Source: Flavobacteriales bacterium
GTDB lineage: Bacteria; Bacteroidota; Bacteroidia; Flavobacteriales_C; GCA-002722245
DNA length: 39,489 nt
Assembly (NCBI GenBank): GCA_947444925.1
Contig: CANFBW010000028.1
Coordinates: 1 to 39,489, forward strand
Reading direction: 5' to 3'
This document shows positions 1,008 to 14,619 of the stretch, one piece after another. Each line of letters begins with the position of its first letter. Positions within the stretch are counted from its first letter, which is position 1. The notes beneath the pieces were generated by a model that saw only the letters and a list, made by a program, of their open reading frames with translations, searched no databases and was not told the origin of the DNA. The position numbers and the translations under genes are program-made.

Positions 1008-2288
1008 ATGTCACTACTTCAAAAAGACATACAAAACATTTGGCATCCTTTCACGCAAACCTATGGAAGCGAGGCTCCTGTTGCAATCGTAAAAGGAGAA
1101 GGACTTTACCTGATCGACGAAGAAGGCAACCGAATTGTTGACGCAGTATCGTCATGGTGGACCAGCATTCACGGACACTGCCACCCCTATATTGCCCAAA
1201 AAATTGCCGAACAAGCAAGCACGCTTGACCATGTGATTTTTGCAGGATTCACACATCCAAAGGCCGTAGACTTATCTCAACACTTGTTGCGACTGTTGCC
1301 GGCAAATTTCTCTAAAATATTTTTCTCCGACGATGGTTCTACCGCCGTTGAAGTAGCCATTAAAATGGCGGTGCAATACTGGCATAACCAAGGCCAAACA
1401 AAAAACCGAATCATCGCCTTTAAAGAAGCCTACCACGGCGATACCTTTGGCGCAATGGCCATCGGCGAACGCGGTGCATTTACGAAGGCTTTTGAATCCT
1501 TATTTTTTGAAGTAGATTTTATCGACGCTCCACTGCCAGGCAGCGAGGACCGTTGTTTACAGCAGTTGCAAGCAGCCATGCGACCCGATACCGCCGCTTT
1601 TATTTTTGAACCCTTGCTGCTGGGAACAGCAGGTATGCAAATGTACTCTGCAGAAGTGCTGCAAAAAATGGTGGACCTCTGCAAAGCATCGGGTGTACTG
1701 ACGATCGCCGACGAAGTTCTGACAGGTTTTTACCGCACTGGAAAATGTTTTGCCACCAATAATTTAAAAAGTGGCAGTGACATCATTTGTCTTTCAAAAG
1801 GAATCACTGGTGGCACTATGGCTTTGGGCGTCACAGCTTGTGCGCAACATATTTACGACGCCTTTGTTTCTGAAGATAAATTCAAAACTTTTTTCCACGG
1901 ACATTCTTATACCGGAAACCCTATTGCTTGTGCTGCTGCTTGTGCAAATTTAGAATTGCTTGCCACAGCGGAAAGTCTGCAAAAAATCAGCGAACTCTGC
2001 CGCCTACAAGCGCAGTGGGCGCATCACTTCGCTGCACATCCTGCTCTGCACATCGCCAGAAATTTGGGCACCATTACCGCTTTGGAAATCAAAACAGGAG
2101 ACAATACTTCCTATTTCAATACATTGCGCGATACCATTTACCAACATTTTATGCGCAAAAACATTTTACTGCGCCCACTTGGCAACATTATTTATGTGTT
2201 GCCGCCCTACTGCATCACAGCCGATGAACTCAAACACATTTATAGTGAAATCGAGCTCTTTTTAAATCAACTCCATACAAAGGCATGA
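1008..2288 (+). CDS. bioA: Adenosylmethionine-8-amino-7-oxononanoate aminotransferase
   Basis: BioA transfers the amino group of S-adenosylmethionine to 7-keto-8-aminopelargonate, giving 7,8-diaminopelargonate, the antepenultimate step of biotin synthesis. It is a cytosolic, PLP-dependent class III aminotransferase. The 426 residues match the usual length. Visible signatures are IWHPFTQ near residue 11, SSWW at 48-51 (a BioA-specific substrate-pocket motif) followed by IHGHCHP, YHGDTFGAM, the IADEVLTGFYRTGK segment containing the PLP-ring Asp, and CLSKGITGGT with the Schiff-base Lys at about residue 264. ATG 1008 is preferred to an in-frame TTG at 990, which lies 3 nt after the previous stop. 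The stop overlaps the next start as ATGA, implying translational coupling. No other biotin genes are in the window. Confidence 0.95.
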   Translation: MSLLQKDIQNIWHPFTQTYGSEAPVAIVKGEGLYLIDEEGNRIVDAVSSWWTSIHGHCHPYIAQKIAEQASTLDHVIFAGFTHPKAVDLSQHLLRLLPANFSKIFFSDDGSTAVEVAIKMAVQYWHNQGQTKNRIIAFKEAYHGDTFGAMAIGERGAFTKAFESLFFEVDFIDAPLPGSEDRCLQQLQAAMRPDTAAFIFEPLLLGTAGMQMYSAEVLQKMVDLCKASGVLTIADEVLTGFYRTGKCFATNNLKSGSDIICLSKGITGGTMALGVTACAQHIYDAFVSEDKFKTFFHGHSYTGNPIACAAACANLELLATAESLQKISELCRLQAQWAHHFAAHPALHIARNLGTITALEIKTGDNTSYFNTLRDTIYQHFMRKNILLRPLGNIIYVLPPYCITADELKHIYSEIELFLNQLHTKA

Positions 2289-2839
2289 AAAATATCGGCA
2301 AAAACATTTCTTACAAAGAAGAAAAAGGTGAATTGTATTTAGAAATAAAACCCAGCTACGACAAACAAAAATACCAACTCGCGCTGGTGTGGTTCATTGC
2401 CTGGAGCGCCTGCGGAATAGCGGTGTTGTCTCAATTTTTTTTCGATCTCGACCGCAATCAAAAATTATTCCTCATCATCTTCATGGTTTTTTGGCTTTAC
2501 TTTGAATACCAGGTAATGCAAGCACTCCGCTGGCGCAAGTCGGGAAAAGAAATAGTGAAAATTGCCGATGGAAAAATGCACTATGTCAAAGAAATCAGTG
2601 GGCGTGGACTCGAAAAAATTTACGACAGCGAAACCCTCACTCCACTGCAATACGTAGCCTCAGCCAACGAAGGATTTTTCAATGTGCTCAACCAATCCAG
2701 CTGGATGCCTGGCAATGAAGTGCTCGAATTCAAAGCCAGCGATCGTTTGCGCCGACTCGGCATTCAGCTAAATAAAAATGATGCAGAACAGTTGGCAAAA
2801 AAAATAAATCACTATATTCATAAAAATGCTTCTCTGTGA
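2285..2839 (+). CDS. Two-helix membrane protein of unknown function
   Basis: A 184-residue protein with no recognised family. Residues 1-31 are hydrophilic. Two hydrophobic helices follow at about 32-53 and 61-78, separated by a short DLDRNQK turn, so both ends should face the cytoplasm. The remaining 105 residues are soluble, mixed alpha/beta, and end in a Lys-rich helix. The layout resembles small bacterial PH-like membrane proteins, but I cannot show homology. Its start overlaps the bioA stop (ATGA) and its stop overlaps the GTG start of the next gene (GTGA), so it sits tightly inside an operon between bioA and a phosphopantetheinyl transferase. That conserved-looking packing is the main clue to its role. 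Confidence 0.75.
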   Translation: MKNIGKNISYKEEKGELYLEIKPSYDKQKYQLALVWFIAWSACGIAVLSQFFFDLDRNQKLFLIIFMVFWLYFEYQVMQALRWRKSGKEIVKIADGKMHYVKEISGRGLEKIYDSETLTPLQYVASANEGFFNVLNQSSWMPGNEVLEFKASDRLRRLGIQLNKNDAEQLAKKINHYIHKNASL

Positions 2840-3486
2840 AAAGATTTATCTATTGGTGCAACATTGATCAATTCCCCAACGAAGTCCAGTGCAGCGCAAT
2901 GATGGCTGAATTGCCTGAGTTTTTGCAGCACAGCATCAGAGAATACAGAAACGAGCGCGATTTCGCTCGAAGCTTGATTGGCAAAACATTGCTCAAAAGA
3001 GGATTGAAATCTTTGGGATTGCACACCACCATTGACACTATTGAACGCAATTCCTTTGGAAGATATGTGTGCACGCAAGGAGAAGTTGACTTCAACATAT
3101 CCCATTCGGGAAATGCCGTGGTGGTCGCCTTTGATCTCGAAGGTAAAGTAGGCATTGACATTCAAGAAAAAAGCAAGGGCTCTCTTTTGATTGCAGAGCG
3201 TTTTTTCGCCACAGAAGAAGTAAATTGGATGAAGGGACAAAAAGATTTCAATAATGCTTTCACGCACATCTGGACCCGCAAAGAAGCTGTAGTAAAAGCA
3301 ACCGGAACAGGCATACGCATTCCACTCAACTCCTTTCTCGTTGTAAAAGATGAAGTAGCAATGAACGGCCAAGCCTTTTACTTGCAAAGCAATTTACACG
3401 ACAGTAAAAACTACTTCTTAACGGTATGCAGCAATTTGAATTTACCCTACCACATTGAACTGTTTTCGTCAACCGATTTGTATTGA
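2836..3486 (+). CDS. 4'-phosphopantetheinyl transferase, Sfp type
   Basis: Transfers the phosphopantetheine arm of coenzyme A to a serine of acyl, peptidyl or aryl carrier proteins in the cytosol. The 216 residues carry the superfamily signatures in order: FNISHS at 86-91, VGIDIQ with the Mg-binding Asp at 108, and WTRKEAVVKATG at 146-157 with catalytic-site Glu150 and Lys154. The length fits the Sfp/AcpT type rather than the short AcpS type. The start is a GTG overlapping the upstream stop as GTGA. The first in-frame ATG is 21 codons later and would remove the conserved N-terminus. It ends the bioA operon. Whether its target is the fatty-acid carrier protein or a specialised carrier cannot be told, as no carrier gene is nearby. 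Confidence 0.9.
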   Translation: MKRFIYWCNIDQFPNEVQCSAMMAELPEFLQHSIREYRNERDFARSLIGKTLLKRGLKSLGLHTTIDTIERNSFGRYVCTQGEVDFNISHSGNAVVVAFDLEGKVGIDIQEKSKGSLLIAERFFATEEVNWMKGQKDFNNAFTHIWTRKEAVVKATGTGIRIPLNSFLVVKDEVAMNGQAFYLQSNLHDSKNYFLTVCSNLNLPYHIELFSSTDLY

Positions 3487-3602: not shown

Positions 3603-6242
3603 ATGATGATGAAAAAACTGTTTTTCACCCTTCTTGCTGCTGCTTTATTCACAGCATGCGCCGACAGCAAAGCCAAAGTAATCCAGCCTGCAAAAGCAGA
3701 AGACCTGTCTCTATATTATGAAATGCTCAACAATGGCAATCAGGGTAAAGACCAATCGCTCAACCAATTTACATTAAGCAACAATGGCGCAGGAGAACTG
3801 GCTGCCAACTGGGTTTTATACTTTAATCAAACCCGAACCATCGTTGACAATTCCGTAAAAGGCGATGTGCAAGTAACACGCATCAACGGCGATTTTTACA
3901 AAGTGGAACCGTCCAAAAACTACAAAGCACTCGCTGCCAAAGGCAAACTTACTTTTACTTTTGAGACCAATGCATGGATCATCAAAAATGCCGACTTCCC
4001 TTGTGGTTTCTATCTTGTATTTAAAGACAGTTTAGGAAAAGAACTGCCTCCCGTTGTGTTGTCAAACGTAAGCTATGCGCCCTTAACCAAAGCCACTCAA
4101 ACCAACAGAGTCGCTGACGACGGAACGCCCATACCAACTGCTGAAAGCAGATACGAAAGCAACAAAATAATTTCTGAATTGGCAGAAGGAGAATACTGCC
4201 CTATTATCCCCACTCCTGCCTCGTATAAAAAAGGTAACGGAGAATTTAAAATTGATGCAAACACCGTAATATACTGCAACAAGGAGGCTATCAATGAAGC
4301 CAAATACCTTCAATCCACTTTAAAAAAATTATTACGATCGGAGCTCGCCATTCGGGAAGGAAAAGGAACAGGAACAGGTATCTTTTTAAATATTGGAACA
4401 TTTAAAATAGGATTTCCAAAAATAGGTGGATATGAATTAGGAATTTCCAATAATGGCGTTGAAATAAAATCAGGTTGTAGAGAAGGAATTTTTAACGGCA
4501 TTCAAAGTTTACGTGCTTTAATTCCGATTGAAGCTTATAAAAAAAATTTAGGCTCGGTTAAAGTTGGAGCAGTGCAAATCACCGACGCGCCACGTTTTGA
4601 ATACCGAGGTATGTTTTTAGATGTGGCCCGAAATTTTCAATCGAAGGAAAGCGTGATGAAACTGCTCGACTTGATGTCGTTTTACAAACTCAATAAATTT
4701 CATTTTCATTTGATGGATGACGAAGGATGGCGTTTGCAAATAGCAGCACTGCCTGAACTTACCGACGTTGGCTCAAAACGAGGCCACAGCAAAGACGAAG
4801 CAGAAATGCTAAATCCTACCTGCGGATCGGGTCCCTTTGCCGACGCTAAACAAAGCAGTGGAACTGGATTTTACAGCAAAACCGATTTTATTGAAATATT
4901 AAAATACGCCACCGACCGCCACATCGAAGTGATTCCTGAACTCGACTTCCCCGGCCATGCCCGCGCTGCCATCGTTTCAATGAAAGCCCGCTACAACAAA
5001 TACATCAAAAGCGATGCGAAAAAAGCCAATGAATATCTTTTGCACGACCCCAACGATGCGTCAAAATACCACACCGAACAACATTACAACGACAACGTCA
5101 TTTGCATTGCCCAAGAGTCGACCTACCACTTTTTAGACACCCTTGTAGGCGCCATCAGTCAAATGTACCAAGAGGCTGGAATCACTTTAAAAATGGTGCA
5201 CACCGGTGGCGACGAAGTACCTCACCCAACACTCAGCGACCCTGAAAGTGGGGCTTGGGTAAAGTCACCCATTTGTGTTGAATTCATGAAGAATTCGGCA
5301 ACTTACAAAAATCCCCGCGACCTCTTTTATTACTACGTCAATCGATTCAACAAAATACTAACCGCGCGCAATATCACCACTGGTGGCTGGGAAGAAATTG
5401 GTTTGCGCAAACAAATTGTTGACAGTGTAGAAGTCATTGCACCCAACCTCGAATTTAGCAACGCACACATAGTCCCTTACATATGGAATACCGTGTGGGG
5501 CTGGGGAAATGAAGACAGAGGCTACAAACTCGCCAATGCAAATTTTAAAATCGTTTTGTCAAACGTGAGCAACCTTTATTTCGATCTCGCCAACGACAAA
5601 GATCCTTTGGAAAACGGCTATTATTGGGGCGGATTTGTTGACCTTAGAAAAGTGTGGTCTTTCGTTCCATTGAACATTGGCAAGGGCATCAATAGCGACC
5701 GAATGGGACACGCACTTGCTGCCGATTACATGAAAAACCTGACACCTCTTACCGCCAAAGGAAAAAACAATGTACTTGGAATTCAAGGTCAGCTGTGGAG
5801 TGAAACCGTGAAAAACAAGGAGACGATGGAATACATGATTTTTCCACGTTTGATCGCATTGGCGGAAAGAGCGTGGGCTGCCGACCCAGCTTGGACAGCC
5901 GCAAAAAATGACGACGAACTTAAAAAACAAAGCGACGTACACTGGAACAGATTCGTTAATACGCTGGGCAAAAGAGATTTACCGCGTTTAGAGTACTTGT
6001 GCAGCGACAATGCGCTCAACTACCGAATTCCGCTGCCAGGTGCAAAAATTGAACACGACAGCTTGTACGCCAACATCGAAATTCCTGGCTTCGAAATACT
6101 TTATACTACTGAACCAAACAAAGCAGAAAGCTGGAAAAAATATAGTGGACCCGTACTCCTATCAAAAGGCAGCAGCGTTGCGCTCAAGGCAAGAAATGCA
6201 AAAGGACGAGAAAGCCGACAATGCGTCGTAAAAAGCAACTAA
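3603..6242 (+). CDS. GH20 beta-N-acetylhexosaminidase lipoprotein (paralogue 1)
   Basis: Removes terminal N-acetylglucosamine or N-acetylgalactosamine from glycans such as chitobiose or peptidoglycan fragments, using substrate-assisted catalysis. The 879 residues begin with a lipoprotein signal ending LFTAC (Cys19). The layout follows Serratia chitobiase: carbohydrate-binding-like domain about 35-170, GH20 domain 2 about 200-320, catalytic barrel about 330-770, small C-terminal beta domain about 800-879. The barrel holds HFHLMDDEGWR, IPELDFPGHARA and the catalytic pair Asp537-Glu538 in HTGGDE. Three consecutive ATG codons occur, and the first is used here. It is followed by a terminator-like hairpin and by a full-length paralogue. 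A patch at about 4320-4560 is much more AT-rich than the rest. Natural substrate unknown. Confidence 0.93.
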   Translation: MMMKKLFFTLLAAALFTACADSKAKVIQPAKAEDLSLYYEMLNNGNQGKDQSLNQFTLSNNGAGELAANWVLYFNQTRTIVDNSVKGDVQVTRINGDFYKVEPSKNYKALAAKGKLTFTFETNAWIIKNADFPCGFYLVFKDSLGKELPPVVLSNVSYAPLTKATQTNRVADDGTPIPTAESRYESNKIISELAEGEYCPIIPTPASYKKGNGEFKIDANTVIYCNKEAINEAKYLQSTLKKLLRSELAIREGKGTGTGIFLNIGTFKIGFPKIGGYELGISNNGVEIKSGCREGIFNGIQSLRALIPIEAYKKNLGSVKVGAVQITDAPRFEYRGMFLDVARNFQSKESVMKLLDLMSFYKLNKFHFHLMDDEGWRLQIAALPELTDVGSKRGHSKDEAEMLNPTCGSGPFADAKQSSGTGFYSKTDFIEILKYATDRHIEVIPELDFPGHARAAIVSMKARYNKYIKSDAKKANEYLLHDPNDASKYHTEQHYNDNVICIAQESTYHFLDTLVGAISQMYQEAGITLKMVHTGGDEVPHPTLSDPESGAWVKSPICVEFMKNSATYKNPRDLFYYYVNRFNKILTARNITTGGWEEIGLRKQIVDSVEVIAPNLEFSNAHIVPYIWNTVWGWGNEDRGYKLANANFKIVLSNVSNLYFDLANDKDPLENGYYWGGFVDLRKVWSFVPLNIGKGINSDRMGHALAADYMKNLTPLTAKGKNNVLGIQGQLWSETVKNKETMEYMIFPRLIALAERAWAADPAWTAAKNDDELKKQSDVHWNRFVNTLGKRDLPRLEYLCSDNALNYRIPLPGAKIEHDSLYANIEIPGFEILYTTEPNKAESWKKYSGPVLLSKGSSVALKARNAKGRESRQCVVKSN

Positions 6243-6250
6243 ACAAAAAC

Positions 6251-6286
6251 AAAAGCAAAGGCAAAACACCATTGCTTTTTGCTTTT
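6251..6286 (+). terminator. Imperfect hairpin after the first GH20 gene
   Basis: AAAAGCAAAGGCAA (6251-6264) can pair with TTGCTTTTTGCTTTT (6272-6286), leaving a short loop and a bulge. The right arm is itself T-rich. It begins 8 nt after the stop codon of the upstream gene. It probably terminates or attenuates transcription between the two GH20 genes; the second gene has its own promoter-like element downstream. Confidence 0.55.
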
Positions 6287-6351
6287 AAAGACCCGACTGC
6301 ACTTCACTTTTCGCAAGCACAAAGCACTGTTCATTTATTCCTTAATATTGT

Positions 6352-6359
6352 TAAATTTG
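6352..6359 (+). promoter_or_regulatory. Putative minus-7 element (TAAATTTG) for the second GH20 gene
   Basis: An exact TAnnTTTG match, 28 nt before the ATG at 6388. An ACTG at 6326-6329 is the only weak minus-33 candidate, with a 22-nt spacer. Together with the preceding hairpin it suggests that the second GH20 gene can be transcribed separately from the first. Confidence 0.5.
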
Positions 6360-6387
6360 TGCTTCCATCATTGTAAATAAAAAAAGC

Positions 6388-9006
6388 ATGAAAAAATTAC
6401 TGTTTGCTCTTTTGACCATCGGCTTATTCGCTGCTTGCTCAGGAGAAGAAGAAGTGATCGCAACACGCACAACAGGTGCTGACCTTGAGGTTCTTTATGA
6501 ATTGATCTCCAACAATTACCAAAACAAAGACCAGTACCTCAACGAATTTGTGCTGCAAAACCACAGTAAATTCGATTTGAACGACAAATGGACCATCTAC
6601 TTCCACCAACCTCTTCCGCTAATCGAAGAGTCGATAGAAGGCCCTGTGAACGTGCAACACATCAATGGAGACTACTACAAAATAACGCCATCTGACGATT
6701 ATGCGCCCATCAAGCCCGAAGGTGAAATTACATTCACTTTTTGCAATGCTGCAGCGATCATCAAAAATGCTGACTTCCCTGTTGGATTTTATATAGTGTT
6801 CAAAGACAGTCTTGGCGTAGAATCGACCCCCGAGCTAATTACTGAAATAACCTATGCGCCGCTGACCAAGGCGAGTCAATTGTCGAGAAGTCCCAGCGAC
6901 AGCATTGCAGTGCCTACTGCCGAAAGCCGTTTCGCCGAGAATCAAATTATTTTCAGCCTCCCTGAAAATGATATAAGTCCAATTATACCAACACCTGTTG
7001 CTTTCAAAAAATCTGAGGGAGAATTCACCATCAACGAAGACAGCAAAATCTATTACCAAAAAGGCTTGGCAAACGAAGCCAACTATTTGCAAACCGCACT
7101 CAACAAATTGCTCAATATAGAATTGGAGAGCGAGGAAGGAAGTGGCACAGGAATCAATCTTATTCTTGGCTCAGCAATCAGCAACCGTGAAGGATACCAA
7201 CTCAACATCAAGCCTTCAAATATTTCAATTGTGGGTTCCGATAAAGCTGGCGTTTTTTACGGCATTCAAAGTTTACGCGCCTTGCTTCCTATAGCGGCCT
7301 ACGCTGCAAACGATGGCTCGGTAAAAGTAGCTGCCGCAGCTGTGAGCGACTACCCGCGCTTTGCATACAGAGGTACGCATTTAGATGTAGTGCGCAACTT
7401 TCACAAAAAAGAAAGTGTGTTGAAATTGCTCGACCTAATGTCGTTTTATAAACTCAATAAATTTCAATTTCACCTGACCGACGACGAAGGATGGAGGGTA
7501 GAAATTCCTGGTATTCCTGAACTCACAGAAGTGGGATCGCGCCGCGGACACACCAAAGATGAAAGCGATATGCTGATGCCTGCCTACGGCTCAGGGCCTT
7601 TTGCCGACGCAAACCAAAGTTTTGGCAATGGTTATTACAGCAAAGCCGATTTTGTTGAAATATTGAAATACGCTGCAGCGCGCCACATTGAAGTCATTCC
7701 TGAAATCGACTTTCCGGGACATGCCCGTGCGGCAATTGTATCGATGAATGCGCGTTACAAAAAATACATCAAAAGCGATGTGAAAAAAGCAAACGAATAT
7801 TTATTGGTCGATCTAAAAGACCAATCGCGCTACCATTCAGTGCAATACTATGATGACAACATCACCAACGTTTGTCAGGAATCCACCTACAAATTTCTTG
7901 AGAAAGTAGTTGATGAATTAAGTAAAATGTACCAAGAAGCAGGCGTGCAACTGAAGATGCTCCATACTGGTGGCGACGAAGTGCCACATCCTTCTAAAGA
8001 CGAGCCAGGCAAAGGCGCTTGGGTGCAATCTCCACTGTGTATTGCTTTTCTTGCGAAATCCGACAAATACAAAAAACCTGAAGACCTTTTTTACTACTTT
8101 GTAGAACGATTCAGTAAAATACTTGCAGCAAAAAAAATAAGCACCGCAGGCTGGGAAGAAATCGGTCTTGAAAAACAAATAGTAGAAGGCAGAGACGAAG
8201 TGGCACCCAACATGGAATTTGTCAAAAGCAATTTCACACCTTACGTGTGGAATACCGTTTGGGGCTGGGGCGGTGAAGACAGGGCTTACCAACTCGCAAA
8301 CTTCGGCTACAAAGTCGTACTGTCAAATGTAAACAATCTGTATTTCGACCTTGCAGTTGACAAAGATCCTTTGGAAAATGGTTACTACTGGGGCGGATTT
8401 GTTGACATTCGCAAACCTTGGGACTTTGTTCCTTTAGACGTCACCAAAGGCACACCACGTGACAGAATGGGCAGAGTGATTTTAGAAGAAGACATGATAG
8501 GCCTTGAAAACCTATCGAAACAAGGCAAAGAAAACGTTTTAGGTATACAGGGACAGCTGTGGAGTGAAACCGTAAAAGGCGCTCAAATGATGGAGTACAT
8601 GATGTTTCCAAAATTAATCAGCTTGGCAGAAAGAGCGTGGGCGCAAGATCCCGCATGGGCAGCTGTTGAAGGTCGCGAGCAATTTAAAAAAGCCAGTGAC
8701 ATCGCCTGGAACAAGTTCGCAAATACACTTGGCCGACGTGATTTACAGCGCATAGAATATCTTGCCAACGACAGCAGCGTAAATTACCGCATTCCTATGC
8801 CGGGTGGCAAAATTGAAAACAACACTTTGGTGGCCAACGCTGAACTTCCTGGATTCAGTATCATGTATAGTTTCGACAAATCAAAAGGCAACTCGTGGAA
8901 AAAATACAGCGCTGCAGTACCTGTTCAATCAGGTGCCACAGTTTATTTAAAATGCGTGAACCGAAAAAATAGAGAAAGTAGAACCATCACAGTGAGTGCA
9001 AAATAA
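6388..9006 (+). CDS. GH20 beta-N-acetylhexosaminidase lipoprotein (paralogue 2)
   Basis: An 872-residue relative of the preceding gene, alignable along its whole length, with the same four-domain chitobiase-like layout. The lipoprotein signal ends LFAAC (Cys17), followed by Ser-Gly then acidic residues. The catalytic pair is Asp530-Glu531 in HTGGDE, with HFHL replaced by FQFHLTDDEGWR and IPEIDFPGHARA conserved. Active-site motifs of both copies are intact, so both are probably working enzymes that may differ in substrate or membrane location. The acidic residues after Cys17 (SGEEE) resemble Bacteroidota surface-export signals, whereas paralogue 1 has ADSKA; this is suggestive only. An NlpC/P60 gene follows after 11 nt, probably in the same transcript. 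Confidence 0.93.
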   Translation: MKKLLFALLTIGLFAACSGEEEVIATRTTGADLEVLYELISNNYQNKDQYLNEFVLQNHSKFDLNDKWTIYFHQPLPLIEESIEGPVNVQHINGDYYKITPSDDYAPIKPEGEITFTFCNAAAIIKNADFPVGFYIVFKDSLGVESTPELITEITYAPLTKASQLSRSPSDSIAVPTAESRFAENQIIFSLPENDISPIIPTPVAFKKSEGEFTINEDSKIYYQKGLANEANYLQTALNKLLNIELESEEGSGTGINLILGSAISNREGYQLNIKPSNISIVGSDKAGVFYGIQSLRALLPIAAYAANDGSVKVAAAAVSDYPRFAYRGTHLDVVRNFHKKESVLKLLDLMSFYKLNKFQFHLTDDEGWRVEIPGIPELTEVGSRRGHTKDESDMLMPAYGSGPFADANQSFGNGYYSKADFVEILKYAAARHIEVIPEIDFPGHARAAIVSMNARYKKYIKSDVKKANEYLLVDLKDQSRYHSVQYYDDNITNVCQESTYKFLEKVVDELSKMYQEAGVQLKMLHTGGDEVPHPSKDEPGKGAWVQSPLCIAFLAKSDKYKKPEDLFYYFVERFSKILAAKKISTAGWEEIGLEKQIVEGRDEVAPNMEFVKSNFTPYVWNTVWGWGGEDRAYQLANFGYKVVLSNVNNLYFDLAVDKDPLENGYYWGGFVDIRKPWDFVPLDVTKGTPRDRMGRVILEEDMIGLENLSKQGKENVLGIQGQLWSETVKGAQMMEYMMFPKLISLAERAWAQDPAWAAVEGREQFKKASDIAWNKFANTLGRRDLQRIEYLANDSSVNYRIPMPGGKIENNTLVANAELPGFSIMYSFDKSKGNSWKKYSAAVPVQSGATVYLKCVNRKNRESRTITVSAK

Positions 9007-9787: not shown

Positions 9788-10417
9788 ATGCTGAACGCCG
9801 AACGCTTAGATTATCAAAAAAACGAAGGATTGGAATTGAACAATCTAATCGCTCATCCCTTTGAGCAATTCAAGCATTGGTTTGCCTTCGCGGTGCACGC
9901 CGATGCCTTTCATGCCAATGTAATGGCACTGTCAACGGTGCACAACAACCGTCCTTCGTCGCGCATCGTTTTGCTTAAAGAATTAGACGATAGCGGCTTC
10001 ACCTTTTACACCAATTACCAAAGTCATAAAGCACAGGAAATTGCAGAAAACAAATATGCCTCCCTCCTCTTTTTTTGGAAAGAAATAGAGCGGCAAATTC
10101 GTATTGAAGGTGTGCTCGAAAAAGTGTCGGAAGAAAGTTCCAACGAATATTTTAAAACGCGACCGCGCGAAAGTCAAATTGGCGCATGGGCCTCTCCGCA
10201 AAGTGAAGACATCAGTCGCGCCGAATTAGAACAACGTGTTGCAGCGCTCAACGAAAAGTACGCCGGACAAGAAATACCGCGTCCTCCGCATTGGGGCGGC
10301 TACCGATTGATTGCCGATAAATTTGAATTTTGGCAAGGACGTGCTGGCCGTTTGCACGATCGCTTCGTGTATACTCCGCACAACCAAAATTGGGAAATTC
10401 GCAGAATAGCGCCGTAA
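9788..10417 (+). CDS. pdxH: Pyridoxamine/pyridoxine 5'-phosphate oxidase
   Basis: Oxidises pyridoxamine or pyridoxine 5'-phosphate to pyridoxal 5'-phosphate, using FMN and oxygen, in the last step of vitamin B6 synthesis and salvage. The 209 residues match the family closely: RPSSRIVLLK (FMN phosphate contacts), FYTNYQSHKAQ, RPRESQIGAWAS, PRPPHWGGYRL and EFWQGRAGRLHDR (substrate site), ending in the typical RRIAP. Length and both ends are normal. The ATG is 2 nt after the preceding stop. It is the last gene of normal base composition before the AT-rich flavoprotein. PLP is the cofactor of BioA upstream, but the two are in separate operons and I infer no direct link. Confidence 0.96.
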   Translation: MLNAERLDYQKNEGLELNNLIAHPFEQFKHWFAFAVHADAFHANVMALSTVHNNRPSSRIVLLKELDDSGFTFYTNYQSHKAQEIAENKYASLLFFWKEIERQIRIEGVLEKVSEESSNEYFKTRPRESQIGAWASPQSEDISRAELEQRVAALNEKYAGQEIPRPPHWGGYRLIADKFEFWQGRAGRLHDRFVYTPHNQNWEIRRIAP

Positions 10418-10450
10418 TAAAAGTTTTTTAGAATTAACTGAATACATTTT

Positions 10451-11707
10451 ATGGTGCAAAATATTACAAGTAAAATAACAATAATTGGTGCGGGTCCTGC
10501 AGGAGCAACTTTGGCTTTGTTTTTAGCCAAATATAAAATACCTCATTTACTGATTGACCAAGCATCATTTCCTCGTGATAAAATATGTGGAGACGGCTTA
10601 ACTTGTGAAGTCCCAAGAATTTTACGAGAATTAGACGAAAGCATTTATCAGGAGTTTATCAATGCTGATTGGGTTAAACCATCAAATGGAGCATATATCG
10701 AATTAAAGAATGGTCAAAAAACAAGTTTTGAATCCGACAATTTTTCAAGAAACACATCAGCTGTATTTGTTGCAAAAAGAGAAATATTTGACAATTGGTT
10801 AATTTCTAAATTAAACACAGAATATACCCAAAAAATATTTTCGTTTAAAGCAGAATCAATCACAAGAATAGGAGATTTAGTTGAAATAACAGGGAATCAA
10901 AATGGTGAAACGATCACCATAATAAGTAATTTAATTATCGGAGCTGACGGTGAAAGGTCAATAGTTCGTAAAACGTTTCATCCAGAAGGGATAAAAAAAA
11001 ACAGAGAACATTGCGCTGCTGCTATTAGATGTTATTACAAAGGAATAGAAAAACTAAGCGACGGGAATCCTTTAGAAATGTATCAACCTAAGTTGATCCC
11101 AAAAGGATATTTGTGGATTTTCCATTTGCCTAACGGTGAAGCAAATGTTGGTTTTGGAGGATTATCGTCTGATATTTCTGAAAACAAAATCAATTTAGTG
11201 AAAGAAATGAATTTGTATATTCAGTCCAACCCCGACTTAAAAAATAGATTTAAAAACGCAGAGGCTCTTGAGACTCCAAAAGGTTGGGGGCTTCCTCAAA
11301 ATTCAGACGCTTATAACTATGTTGGTGATAATTATTTATTAATAGGTGATTCCGCAAAATTTATTGAACCATTAACAGGAAAAGGTATTGGAGTAGCCAT
11401 GTTTGCTGCAATGTTAGCCGTTCCAACTATTAAAAATGCAATTTCAAAAAACACATTCAATAAAAACCAATTGATTAGTTTTGAAAATGTAATTGAAAAT
11501 AAATATAGAGCAGAGTGGGATAAACTTTATAAATTGCAAAACAAAGTTATTAACGCATGGTACGTACCATTATTCGTTACATTATTGAATATTACGTTTA
11601 TCAAAAACTATTTAATAAAAAAACAAAAAACAAAAACTCGTAAATTTTTGAATAAACCTTTAAATAAAAAAGTGCTGGATGATTACAATTTATTTGAAAA
11701 TCAATAG
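10451..11707 (+). CDS. Geranylgeranyl-reductase-family FAD oxidoreductase, atypical composition
   Basis: A 418-residue flavoprotein. Its N-terminus has the Rossmann dinucleotide motif GAGPAGA (residues 13-19), then FPRDKICGDGL, the hallmark of the geranylgeranyl reductase group, in which the Cys lies near the flavin. GADGERSIVRKTF and GDSAKFIEPLTGKGIG complete the FAD-binding set. Members saturate isoprenoid chains of chlorophyll, archaeal lipids or menaquinone, and others are halogenases or hydroxylases, so substrate is uncertain. The coding sequence is far more AT-rich than its neighbours (13 G+C of 60 at 10801-10860, against 28 of 60 at 10201-10260) and favours AAA, AAT, TTA and ATT codons, suggesting transfer from an AT-rich donor. 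It converges with the bestrophin gene 28 nt downstream. Confidence 0.85.
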   Translation: MVQNITSKITIIGAGPAGATLALFLAKYKIPHLLIDQASFPRDKICGDGLTCEVPRILRELDESIYQEFINADWVKPSNGAYIELKNGQKTSFESDNFSRNTSAVFVAKREIFDNWLISKLNTEYTQKIFSFKAESITRIGDLVEITGNQNGETITIISNLIIGADGERSIVRKTFHPEGIKKNREHCAAAIRCYYKGIEKLSDGNPLEMYQPKLIPKGYLWIFHLPNGEANVGFGGLSSDISENKINLVKEMNLYIQSNPDLKNRFKNAEALETPKGWGLPQNSDAYNYVGDNYLLIGDSAKFIEPLTGKGIGVAMFAAMLAVPTIKNAISKNTFNKNQLISFENVIENKYRAEWDKLYKLQNKVINAWYVPLFVTLLNITFIKNYLIKKQKTKTRKFLNKPLNKKVLDDYNLFENQ

Positions 11708-11735
11708 CGTCTGCTCATGTGAGAAAAATTAAGCC

Positions 11736-12590
11736 TCAACTGTTTTTGATCTCCTCTATATTTGCTCTGATCTTTCCTTCGAGTTCATCAAAAGGCAGGT
11801 CATTTACGTCTGTTCCAAAAGGATCTTCTATTTCCTCGGCTATCAGTTCAATACCTATCATTGTGTAAAAAACCACCATCACCACAGGTATCGACCACCA
11901 GTTCAAACTATCAATAAAACCAAAAGGCAGCGTAAGCATATATATCAGCAAAATCCGTTTCAAATGCAAAGCGTAACCAAAAGGAATTGGTGTGCTGTGA
12001 ATTCTCTCGCAGGCACCCAAAATATCGGCCAACTCATTGAGTTTGGTTTCTACAATAATCAATTGCTCACCAGATATTGTTCCCAACTTATACAGCTGAT
12101 GTGTTTTCAGCGACAGCTCCATCAATATGAATAAAGGTTTGTGGTCAGCCTTTTCAAATTTTTGGAGCATTGATAAAGGCAGATGCGTTTTCACCTCCTC
12201 AAAATTCTTGTCGCGAAGATGCACCTTCATCGCCCACGGAAAAGCTGCAAGTAAAGTGTAAATTTCAACATCATTGGTATCGTAAGTTTTGAATTTGAAA
12301 GCACAAATACGAGAGGTATTTACGAGCGCACCCAATTGTTTTCTTCCCTCCCACCAGCGTTCGTAGGCAGTGTTCGTCCTGAAAACCAAAAGCAAGCCAA
12401 TCACCAAACCCAATACCGTATGAAATGAAGTTGGCATATGAAATATTCCCAAATCAAAACGCCGGTGAACAGCTGTCAACCCAGCAGCAATCAATCCATA
12501 TACCACTAAACTTGCAAATACACCTTCGTAATGGTATCCACTTCTTTTGATTAAAAAATTAAACCAGTTTTTATTGTCGTATTCAATCAT
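11736..12590 (-). CDS. Bestrophin-family anion channel
   Basis: A 284-residue inner-membrane protein of the bestrophin (formerly UPF0187) family, whose members form pentameric anion or, in some bacteria, cation channels. Typical segments are RTNTAYERWWEGRKQLG after the second membrane helix, ERIHSTPIPFGYALHLKR in the middle, and the nearly invariant ELIAEEIEDPFGTDVNDLP near the C-terminus. About four hydrophobic helices are visible (around 22-43, 53-70, 210-226 and 231-250). It lies 34 nt after the dehydrogenase gene in the same direction and may share its transcript. Ion selectivity cannot be deduced from the sequence. Confidence 0.93.
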   Translation of the reverse strand: MIEYDNKNWFNFLIKRSGYHYEGVFASLVVYGLIAAGLTAVHRRFDLGIFHMPTSFHTVLGLVIGLLLVFRTNTAYERWWEGRKQLGALVNTSRICAFKFKTYDTNDVEIYTLLAAFPWAMKVHLRDKNFEEVKTHLPLSMLQKFEKADHKPLFILMELSLKTHQLYKLGTISGEQLIIVETKLNELADILGACERIHSTPIPFGYALHLKRILLIYMLTLPFGFIDSLNWWSIPVVMVVFYTMIGIELIAEEIEDPFGTDVNDLPFDELEGKIRANIEEIKNS

Positions 12591-12624: not shown

Positions 12625-14619
12625 TCAATACGCCTGCAAAGCCTTCAGCTTTTCAACCAGGCGTGATTGCGCCAAAAACTGTTTCTCTAAGTCGGCTTGA
12701 AATGGAACAGGGCTATCGAGGCTCGCCACGCGCATGACTGGTGCGTCTAAACTTTCAAAACAATTTTCAGTAATCAGCGCGCTGATTTCCGCACCAATTC
12801 CACCCATCAGGGTATCTTCGTGCAACACCAAAACTTTAGCACATTTTCTAGCACTTGCAAAAATGGCCGCTGTATCCAAAGGCATTAAGGTGCGCAAATC
12901 CAGTACGTCTGCAGAAATACCAGTTTCTGCAACAGCCTGCAAAGCCCAATGCACGCCCAATCCATAAGTAATGATGGCAATTTCATTTCCTTCTTGCACC
13001 AAAGCAGCTTTGCCGATGGGCAAAGTATAGTAACCATCGGGCACTTGTTGTACACTGCTTCTGTATAGCGCTTTGTGTTCAAAATACAACACTGGATTTG
13101 GATCTTCGATCGCCGCCAACAATAAGCCTTTCGCGTCATATGGAAATGCTGGATATACAATTTTAAGTCCGGGCACATGAAAAAACCAAGCCTCATTGCT
13201 TTGGCTGTGAAAAGGTCCGGCCGCAACACCTGCGCCCGTAGGCATGCGAATCACCACATCGGCATTTTGACTCCAACGGTAATTGCTTTTCGCCAAATTA
13301 TTCACGATTTGATTGAAGCCACAAGTGACAAAATCAGCAAACTGCATCTCCACCACCGACTTCCAACCTTTAATGCTCAAACCCATAGCAGCGCCAATAA
13401 TTGCTGATTCACAAAGAGGCGTATTTCTGATTTTTTCTTTGCCGAATTCAGCCAAAAAACCTTCTGTTACTTTAAACGCGCCGCCATACTCGGCGATATC
13501 TTGGCCCATCAACAGCAAGTTGCTGTGCCTGCGCAAAGCTTGTCGCAACGCATCACTCACCGCATCAATATAACGCAATTCCGAGCTATTGCTTTCGGGC
13601 ATTGAAATCACTGCATTGTGCGCCGCGTAAACATCGGCCAATTCGTTAGCACAGTCGGGCACAATATCTGCTTCGTCCATCACCTCTTGCACAGCAGCGG
13701 CAATTTCTTCTTTTATTTGCTGGTGCATGGCAGCGTTGTCTGCAGCGCTAATGATACCTTCTTTCAATAAAAATGCTTCGTAATTGAGAATGGGATCTTT
13801 GGTCGCCCATTCGTCAAACAAGGCTTGCGGAATGTACTTGGTACCCGATGCTTCTTCGTGTCCACGCATGCGAAAAGTGCGACATTCCACCAAAATCGGT
13901 TGCGGATTCTTGCGCACTTTCTCTGCAATTTGCACAAAAGTGTGGTATACCTCTAAAACATTGTTGCCGTCTATAGATATGCCTTCAATGCCGTACCCTT
14001 GCGCTTTGTCAACAAAACTGGCATTCAAAAACTGCTCTTTCGAAGGCGTTGACAAGGCATATCCATTGCTTTCAACCACAAATATTACCGGCAATTGCCA
14101 CACGGCTGCAACATTCAATGCCTCATGAAATTCACCTTGACTGGCACCGCCATCGCCCGTAAATACAAGCGTTGCTTTTTTTTCTTTATTGAGTTTACAA
14201 GCCAATGCAACACCGTCGGCCAGCGACAACTGAGGCCCCAAATGCGAAATCATGCCCACAATGTGAAATTCATTGGTGCCAAAATGAAAGGAGCGCTCAC
14301 GCCCTTTGCTAAAGCCAGAAGCCTTGCCTTGAAATTGTGCGAAAAGTCGATTGAAAGGAATGTCTCTTCCTGTAAAAACACCTAAATTGCGGTGCATTGG
14401 AAAAATATATTCATCGCTGCGCAAAGCTTTTGTTGCGCCAACTGAAATGGCCTCTTGACCGATGCCCGAAAACCATTTTGAAATTTTACCCTGACGCAAG
14501 AGCACTAACATTTTCTCTTCAAAAAGTCGCGGAGTAAGCAAACGTCGGTAAAGGTTCAGCAACTCTTCGTTAGAGCTGTTGAGGCGCTTAAAATCCAACA
14601 CCGGAAGTGCGGCATTCAT
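12625..14619 (-). CDS. Fused alpha/beta 2-oxoisovalerate dehydrogenase E1
   Basis: Thiamine-diphosphate-dependent E1 of the branched-chain 2-oxoacid dehydrogenase complex, which decarboxylates 2-oxo acids from Val, Leu and Ile and loads the acyl group on the E2 lipoyl domain. In 664 residues it joins an alpha subunit (about 1-325) and a beta subunit (about 345-664) that are separate in many bacteria. The ThDP motif runs from GDG at 155-157 to Asn185 in VVESNGYAL. The alpha loop has FRMRGHEEAS, and the beta half shows GQDIAEYGGAFKVTEG, FADFVTCGFNQIVN and VLHEDTLMGGIGAE. Such fusions are common in Bacteroidota. The start overlaps the preceding stop by one base (TAATG). No E2 or E3 gene is in the window. 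Pyruvate as the substrate is less likely but not excluded. Confidence 0.93.
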   Translation of the reverse strand: MNAALPVLDFKRLNSSNEELLNLYRRLLTPRLFEEKMLVLLRQGKISKWFSGIGQEAISVGATKALRSDEYIFPMHRNLGVFTGRDIPFNRLFAQFQGKASGFSKGRERSFHFGTNEFHIVGMISHLGPQLSLADGVALACKLNKEKKATLVFTGDGGASQGEFHEALNVAAVWQLPVIFVVESNGYALSTPSKEQFLNASFVDKAQGYGIEGISIDGNNVLEVYHTFVQIAEKVRKNPQPILVECRTFRMRGHEEASGTKYIPQALFDEWATKDPILNYEAFLLKEGIISAADNAAMHQQIKEEIAAAVQEVMDEADIVPDCANELADVYAAHNAVISMPESNSSELRYIDAVSDALRQALRRHSNLLLMGQDIAEYGGAFKVTEGFLAEFGKEKIRNTPLCESAIIGAAMGLSIKGWKSVVEMQFADFVTCGFNQIVNNLAKSNYRWSQNADVVIRMPTGAGVAAGPFHSQSNEAWFFHVPGLKIVYPAFPYDAKGLLLAAIEDPNPVLYFEHKALYRSSVQQVPDGYYTLPIGKAALVQEGNEIAIITYGLGVHWALQAVAETGISADVLDLRTLMPLDTAAIFASARKCAKVLVLHEDTLMGGIGAEISALITENCFESLDAPVMRVASLDSPVPFQADLEKQFLAQSRLVEKLKALQAY

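Follow-up and report, generated by a model that had tools for sequence, protein, structure and literature searches.

An AT-rich gene of the geranylgeranyl reductase superfamily, probably acquired by transfer, at the pdxH-bestrophin junction of a Flavobacteriales bacterium

Between the convergent pdxH and bestrophin genes of a Flavobacteriales bacterium lies a single intact gene of the geranylgeranyl reductase (GG-red) superfamily, here called P0001, and horizontal transfer from an unsampled member of the Bacteroidota is its probable origin. Judged by motifs and a structural model, it most likely encodes an acquired enzyme that uses FAD to reduce isoprenoid double bonds. The two parts together, a lone GG-red gene acquired from Bacteroidota and encoding a prenyl-chain reductase, are given a probability of about 0.6. 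The superfamily's reductases serve to tune membrane lipids, quinones and pigments; to our knowledge, a substrate is known for few of its bacterial members. The transfer event as such is fairly ordinary, and P0001 adds one more member to a known superfamily. Table 1 presents the coordinates of the gene, its motifs and its surroundings. The term window denotes the whole stretch of DNA that was analysed, 39,489 nucleotides in length.

Table 1. Features of the P0001 gene and its junction (window coordinates unless another locus is named)
Feature	Position	Strand	Remarks
P0001 gene, 418-aa GG-red superfamily FAD protein	10451-11707	+	GC 31.2%, GC3 0.23
Inserted stretch	10418-11735		all bases between the convergent pdxH and bestrophin stop codons
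pdxH, left flank	9788-10417	+	native; 71-75% identity in four congeners
Bestrophin-family channel gene, right flank	11736-12590	-	native; 67-77% identity in three congeners
GAGPAG, residues 13-18	10487-10504	+	GxGxxG dinucleotide-binding motif, as given in PMC10821996
CGDG, residues 46-49	10586-10597	+	reductase-type cysteine motif; aligns with CGEG of 3oz2
REIFD, residues 110-114	10778-10792	+	RxxFD, FAD contact motif
PKGYLWIFH, residues 217-225	11099-11125	+	catalytic PxxYxWxFP, last Pro replaced by His
LIGD, residues 297-300	11339-11350	+	LxGD, an FAD motif; IEPLTGKGIG follows
3' side of pdxH, window	10418-11735		
3' side of pdxH, locus L082 (G002)	4636-6127		
3' side of pdxH, locus L083	2132		
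3' side of pdxH, locus L086	5822-6379		
3' side of pdxH, locus L084	below 1025		

The sequence-only reading had placed a sharply AT-rich gene at this junction, and the four G+C counts that it quoted are exact (13/60 at 10801-10860, 17/60 at 11521-11580, 23/60 at 11101-11160, and 28/60 at 10201-10260). A segmentation scan run without reference to genes returned positions 10415-11706 as the single low-GC segment of highest likelihood ratio (30.7% GC, LLR 39.0), which coincides with the P0001 open reading frame and its 33-nt leader and lands on the gene within the gap. The gap as a whole has a GC content of 31.0%, compared with 46.5% for pdxH, 39.5% for bestrophin and 42.4% for the full 39.5-kb window, and across 711 windows of 1318 nt lying clear of the gene the minimum is 0.385. 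At the level of the genome, sampled as 385 kb (20 stretches plus the window) with 243 ORFs of at least 150 aa, P0001 ranks lowest in both GC (z -3.7) and GC3 (0.227 against a mean of 0.426, z -3.6). GC at codon positions 1, 2 and 3 is 0.38, 0.33 and 0.23, as would be expected of coding sequence that stems from an AT-rich background. A foreign codon dialect was considered as a sign of foreignness and dropped, as the synonymous codon likelihood scored from the genome's own codon table is unremarkable (z +1.0, rank 210 of 243). P0001 favours the commoner codons of the genome, presumably because the common codons of the host already end in A or T. The anomaly is thus one of base composition and not of codon dialect; of the proposed check on GC and codon adaptation, the compositional half brought out the anomaly and the codon half did not.

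The junction was compared in five genomes of the genus, consisting of the genome under study (G000) and four congeners (G001 to G004). In G000 the order is pdxH, the AT-rich P0001 gene and bestrophin. In G004, pdxH and bestrophin converge with overlapping stop codons and no gene between them, forming an empty site. G002 keeps the pair with an unrelated, secreted-looking gene of 424 aa in the gap, G003 has a 185-aa gene (YdcF-like by eye) after pdxH and no bestrophin match at E<=1e-20, and in G001 bestrophin and pdxH lie on separate contigs. From this comparison the pdxH-bestrophin pair is older than the insert, and the insertion would have taken place in the lineage of G000 after its split from G002 and G004. 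A look at this junction in close relatives had been proposed as a check on the acquisition, and the empty site in G004 and the different gene in G002 both speak for it. Neither a tRNA nor a flanking repeat was found at the insert ends, and neither is required for the gain of a single gene by recombination. The ends carry no excess of promoter-like or terminator-like sites, and there is no mobility gene among the scanned neighbours. Since P0001 begins 33 nt after the pdxH stop codon and shows no promoter excess, it may be transcribed by read-through from pdxH.

Two explanations of the junction dispense with transfer. The first, an assembly chimera or contamination that put a foreign 1.3-kb piece in this place, is highly improbable: the 3.24-Mb genome is indeed spread over 123 contigs with an estimated contamination of 1.9%, but the insert sits inside a 39.5-kb contig (C28), flanked left and right by native orthologous genes, and it fills the exact space between two stop codons. 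The second, an ancestral junction gene that drifted towards AT and was lost from all sampled relatives, is improbable as well. Losses are common, and some homologue exists in 32 of 60 relatives (G000 included) at E<=1e-3. Nevertheless, each of the other genomes of the order would have had to lose the gene separately, the gap in G004 would have had to close cleanly until the stop codons overlapped, and G002 would have had to acquire a new gene as well as lose this one. A clade of P0001 with the conserved paralogue of the genus is also rejected by the AU test presented below.

Several further features of the neighbourhood may be noted. The space 3' of pdxH differs in each of the five congeners (Table 1), and genes may have been gained at this junction repeatedly. 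The C-terminus of the gap gene in G002 (L082, 4732-6006) resembles, by eye, a type IX sorting domain. Elsewhere in the window, two adjacent genes of the GH20 beta-N-acetylhexosaminidase type (3603-9006; 879 and 872 aa) share the same four-domain order and both match one single gene in the G001 and G003 stretches (L084, L086). A single 664-aa ORF at 12625-14619 unites the alpha-type and the beta-type part of an enzyme resembling pyruvate dehydrogenase E1.

Close relatives of P0001 are absent from the surrounding lineage. At E<=1e-3, no homologue was found in G002 among the four other genus genomes, nor in any of five sister-genus genomes. At E<=1e-60, G000 is the only match among ten genomes of the order, the other nine being without a relative. 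Wider searches matched 57 of 395 genomes of the class at E<=1e-58 and 25 of 395 of the phylum at E<=1e-40, with G000 included in both counts; the top identity was 42% in the class (G707, G451, G533) and 40% in named genomes among the best 80 of 585 relatives. The class is taken to be Bacteroidia, of the Bacteroidota, because the same-class proteins L092, L093 and L106 have identical counterparts in the named Bacteroidetes loci L116, L120 and L139. Across these searches no relative exceeds about 42% identity, and no donor was found. Single-gene acquisition, as proposed by the sequence-only reading, is well supported and is the best explanation of the origin of P0001 because four lines converge: its composition, the empty site, its absence from the rest of the order, and its failure to group with the conserved paralogue.

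A vehicle was sought as well. Phage records gave 0 matches in 50,697, and a scan of viral contigs with alignment A1 returned 26 stretches and 0 relatives. Plasmid records gave 44 matches in 72,556; with identities of just 20.0-27.4% among the 20 matches listed, no vehicle could be recognised. A scan of genome contigs with P0001 alone as the query returned 20 stretches and likewise 0 relatives. In a survey of gene neighbours, for which the homologue was extracted in 77 of 80 loci, no neighbour cluster appeared in more than five loci. Two homologues, on contigs labelled Azovibrio restrictus (L119) and Saccharibacteria (L188), nest among Bacteroidota, and these contigs are probably mis-binned or mislabelled.

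To place P0001 among its relatives, one tree was built from 144 rows of extracted proteins filtered by length and score, and a second, more careful tree from 74 rows hand-picked from the 144 plus five genus proteins. In both trees P0001 pairs with L122, a locus of a Bacteroidia metagenome-assembled genome (support 98/90 in the careful tree). The pair falls inside a set of ten rows (96/89) that also holds seven loci of Chitinophagaceae or Saprospiraceae type and an accessory protein of G004, L216. P0001 stands apart from the paralogue common to G001, G003 and G004 (L217/L219/L220), and the AU test rejects a single clade of the two (p 0.009). Since its end branch is very long, at 2.1 changes per site in the careful tree, its exact place is unsure. 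The donor had been left open among Bacteroidota, Archaea and Actinobacteria; with a tree position that depends on that long branch, the donor looks like another Bacteroidota lineage rather than one of Archaea or Actinobacteria, and the most likely source would be a more AT-rich, unsampled one.

The phylogeny that had been proposed as a test of transfer speaks against the conserved paralogue but not against L216. Holding P0001 with L216 is compatible with the data (AU p 0.63), with a likelihood slightly better than that of the free tree. In consequence, an older origin has to be considered, in which both proteins descend from one gene in the ancestor of the genus and P0001 evolved quickly, lost GC by drift and was relocated. 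The two share the ten-row set and are of similar length (416 aa for L216, 418 aa for P0001), yet we consider this origin unlikely. P0001 and L216 are only 29.7% identical, compared with 73% for pdxH and 77% for bestrophin between the same two genomes, so vertical descent from a shared L216-like gene would be hard to sustain. Moreover, L216 is on another contig (G004:C66), lacks the CGDG motif and has an ordinary composition (GC3 0.348 in a locus of 38.1% GC). Long-branch attraction is a likely cause of the affinity, as P0001 and L216 are the longest branches of the tree.

The relatives within the genus offer observations of their own. In L216 the cysteine motif is missing and the catalytic strand is altered, and from its sequence this accessory relative possibly performs a different chemistry. 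In G000 the conserved GG-red paralogue is split into two frames (L087, L212; contig C68, about 2070-3214), whose pieces are 96% and 87% identical to the G004 copy, above the 73-77% of pdxH and bestrophin. The split may reflect an error of assembly or the decay of the gene, which may have passed from one congener to another.

Turning to the protein, P0001 passes the NCBIfam superfamily model TIGR02032 (GG-red-SF) with 164 bits against a cut-off of 158.8 and falls just below the cut-off of Pfam GGR_cat (26.2 against 27). It has the predicted fold and four of the five named motifs of the TIGR02032 family. It departs from that family in being at most 42% identical to anything found, in having no characterised orthologue, and in the last residue of the catalytic strand, which is Pro in at least 90% of 38 family rows and His in P0001. 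According to PMC10821996, archaeal enzymes of the family carry the cited motifs, with the cysteine of a CGGG-type motif located near the isoalloxazine ring, and the complete PxxYxWxFP motif is said there not to show high conservation across archaeal paralogues.

An AlphaFold model was computed from P0001 and 37 homologues and has a pLDDT of 85.6; its C-terminal part, from residue 380 on, is poor. When compared by VIA with two archaeal geranylgeranyl reductases, the model gave Z 38.2 with 3oz2 (354 residues, 2.4 A) and Z 33.5 with 3atq. Because the FixC-like protein 7koe (Z 39.4) and the halogenases Mpy16, PltA and ChlB4 (Z 37) match equally well, the fold identifies the superfamily only. The Foldseek/VIA ranking was dropped as evidence of function, given that reductases, halogenases and FixC tie (Z 39.4 to 32). 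Between reductase and halogenase, the sequence motifs appear to be more decisive than the fold: Cys46 aligns with the cysteine of CGEG in 3oz2, while none occurs at this position in PltA and Mpy16, the halogenases of the alignment.

Among known enzymes, the best PDB sequence match is 3oz2 itself, the digeranylgeranylglycerophospholipid reductase of Thermoplasma acidophilum (E 1.5e-23). CG(E/D)G, RxxFD, LxGD and PxxYxWxF all align, although identity is about 21%. P0001 stays below the equivalog models of archaeal reductases of this type (94.9 for NF041160, cut-off 780; 80.2 for NF041080, cut-off 580), and in view of the former it is not filed as a 3oz2-type enzyme. Nor is it filed as MenJ, the menaquinone reductase and a relative within the superfamily (NF045655, 89.4 bits against 700). 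A non-reductase function, as FAD monooxygenase, halogenase or quinocofactor maturase of the LodB or QhpG type, is possible but not favoured. The three halogenases fit the model almost as well as 3oz2 (Z 37 against 38), and there are scores of 72.4 bits with the LodB model and 52 bits with QhpG. However, those models need 400 and 240, the CmlS-type FADH2-dependent halogenase model yields 48.9 bits against 900, and TIGR02032 is both far higher and passed. In addition, no LodA-like partner is found among the scanned neighbours. The hydroxylase and halogenase roles that had been entertained earlier are therefore less likely, as the reductase-type cysteine is present and the aligned halogenases do not have it.

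The substrate of a P0001 reductase may be sought among several candidates. Enzymes of the GG-red family are described as reducing isoprenoid double bonds in an FAD-dependent manner; among them are a sterol C-24 reductase from bacteria (PMC12004948) and a prenyl reductase specific for menaquinone (PMC10821996). For bacteria of the FCB group, GGGP and DGGGP synthases are reported together with reductases (PMC7852524). The genome of P0001 encodes a GGGP synthase that exceeds its equivalog cut-off (186.4 against 161.55), a UbiA enzyme that is closest to the DGGGP-synthase model but below its cut-off (206 against 278), and MenA above its cut-off, with at least part of MenB near it. It also encodes heme O synthase, CrtI and a CrtB-like protein. 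Judging from the genes for GGGP synthase, the DGGGP-synthase-like enzyme, MenA, CrtI and the CrtB-like protein, unsaturated prenyl substrates should be available. The GGGP synthase was dropped as a specific link to the substrate, since it is present in 53 of 60 relatives.

As a mechanism, the product of P0001 would bind FAD, and the reduced flavin would give a hydride to an isoprenoid C=C bond held in a hydrophobic cavity that adjoins the CGDG cysteine and the PxxYxWxF strand. The outcome would be saturation of a prenyl chain, whether in a membrane lipid, a quinone or a pigment precursor. The isoprenoid, quinone or pigment role suggested from the sequence agrees with fold and motifs, whereas quinone, pigment, ether lipid and polyprenol are, individually, candidates only. 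Among distant members of the family, a hint of a menaquinone-linked role comes from what we take, by eye, to be a UbiE-like methyltransferase located one or two genes from the GG-red homologue (L157, L159, L167, L192); the hint applies to those four loci and does not extend to P0001.

The nearest group to P0001 in the trees is a subgroup consisting of L122 with L123, L124, L125, L127, L136, L140 and L164. Its members are 31-34% identical to P0001, most have CGDG, and like P0001 they are without the C-terminal CMFEDLDLR element. L122 and P0001 also share IEP and TGKGIG, as IEP[LF]TGKGIG, where the other 12 aligned rows have GEGI or GHGI. The eight loci have no gene neighbour common to the group. 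A profile search with the subgroup matched 110 of 395 class genomes at E<=1e-70 and found no near orthologue of P0001, the best scores outside G000 belonging to families already met.

The lone gene, a congener with an empty site, and the GGGP and DGGGP-like synthases together would provide a natural gain-of-gene comparison, and lipids of the carrier set against those of a gene-free sister species could reveal the product of P0001. One speculative and improbable reading makes P0001 and L122 the first representatives to be seen of a Bacteroidota subgroup of reductases, uncharacterised so far, whose activity is to saturate an ether lipid of archaeal type. Such a subgroup would be marked by TGKGIG and a shortened C-terminus, with the His-ended catalytic strand as an additional mark of P0001, and the lipid would come from the genome's own GGGP synthase and DGGGP-synthase-like enzyme. 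If so, the transfer would have equipped this species with saturated isoprenoid ether lipids not present in its congeners.
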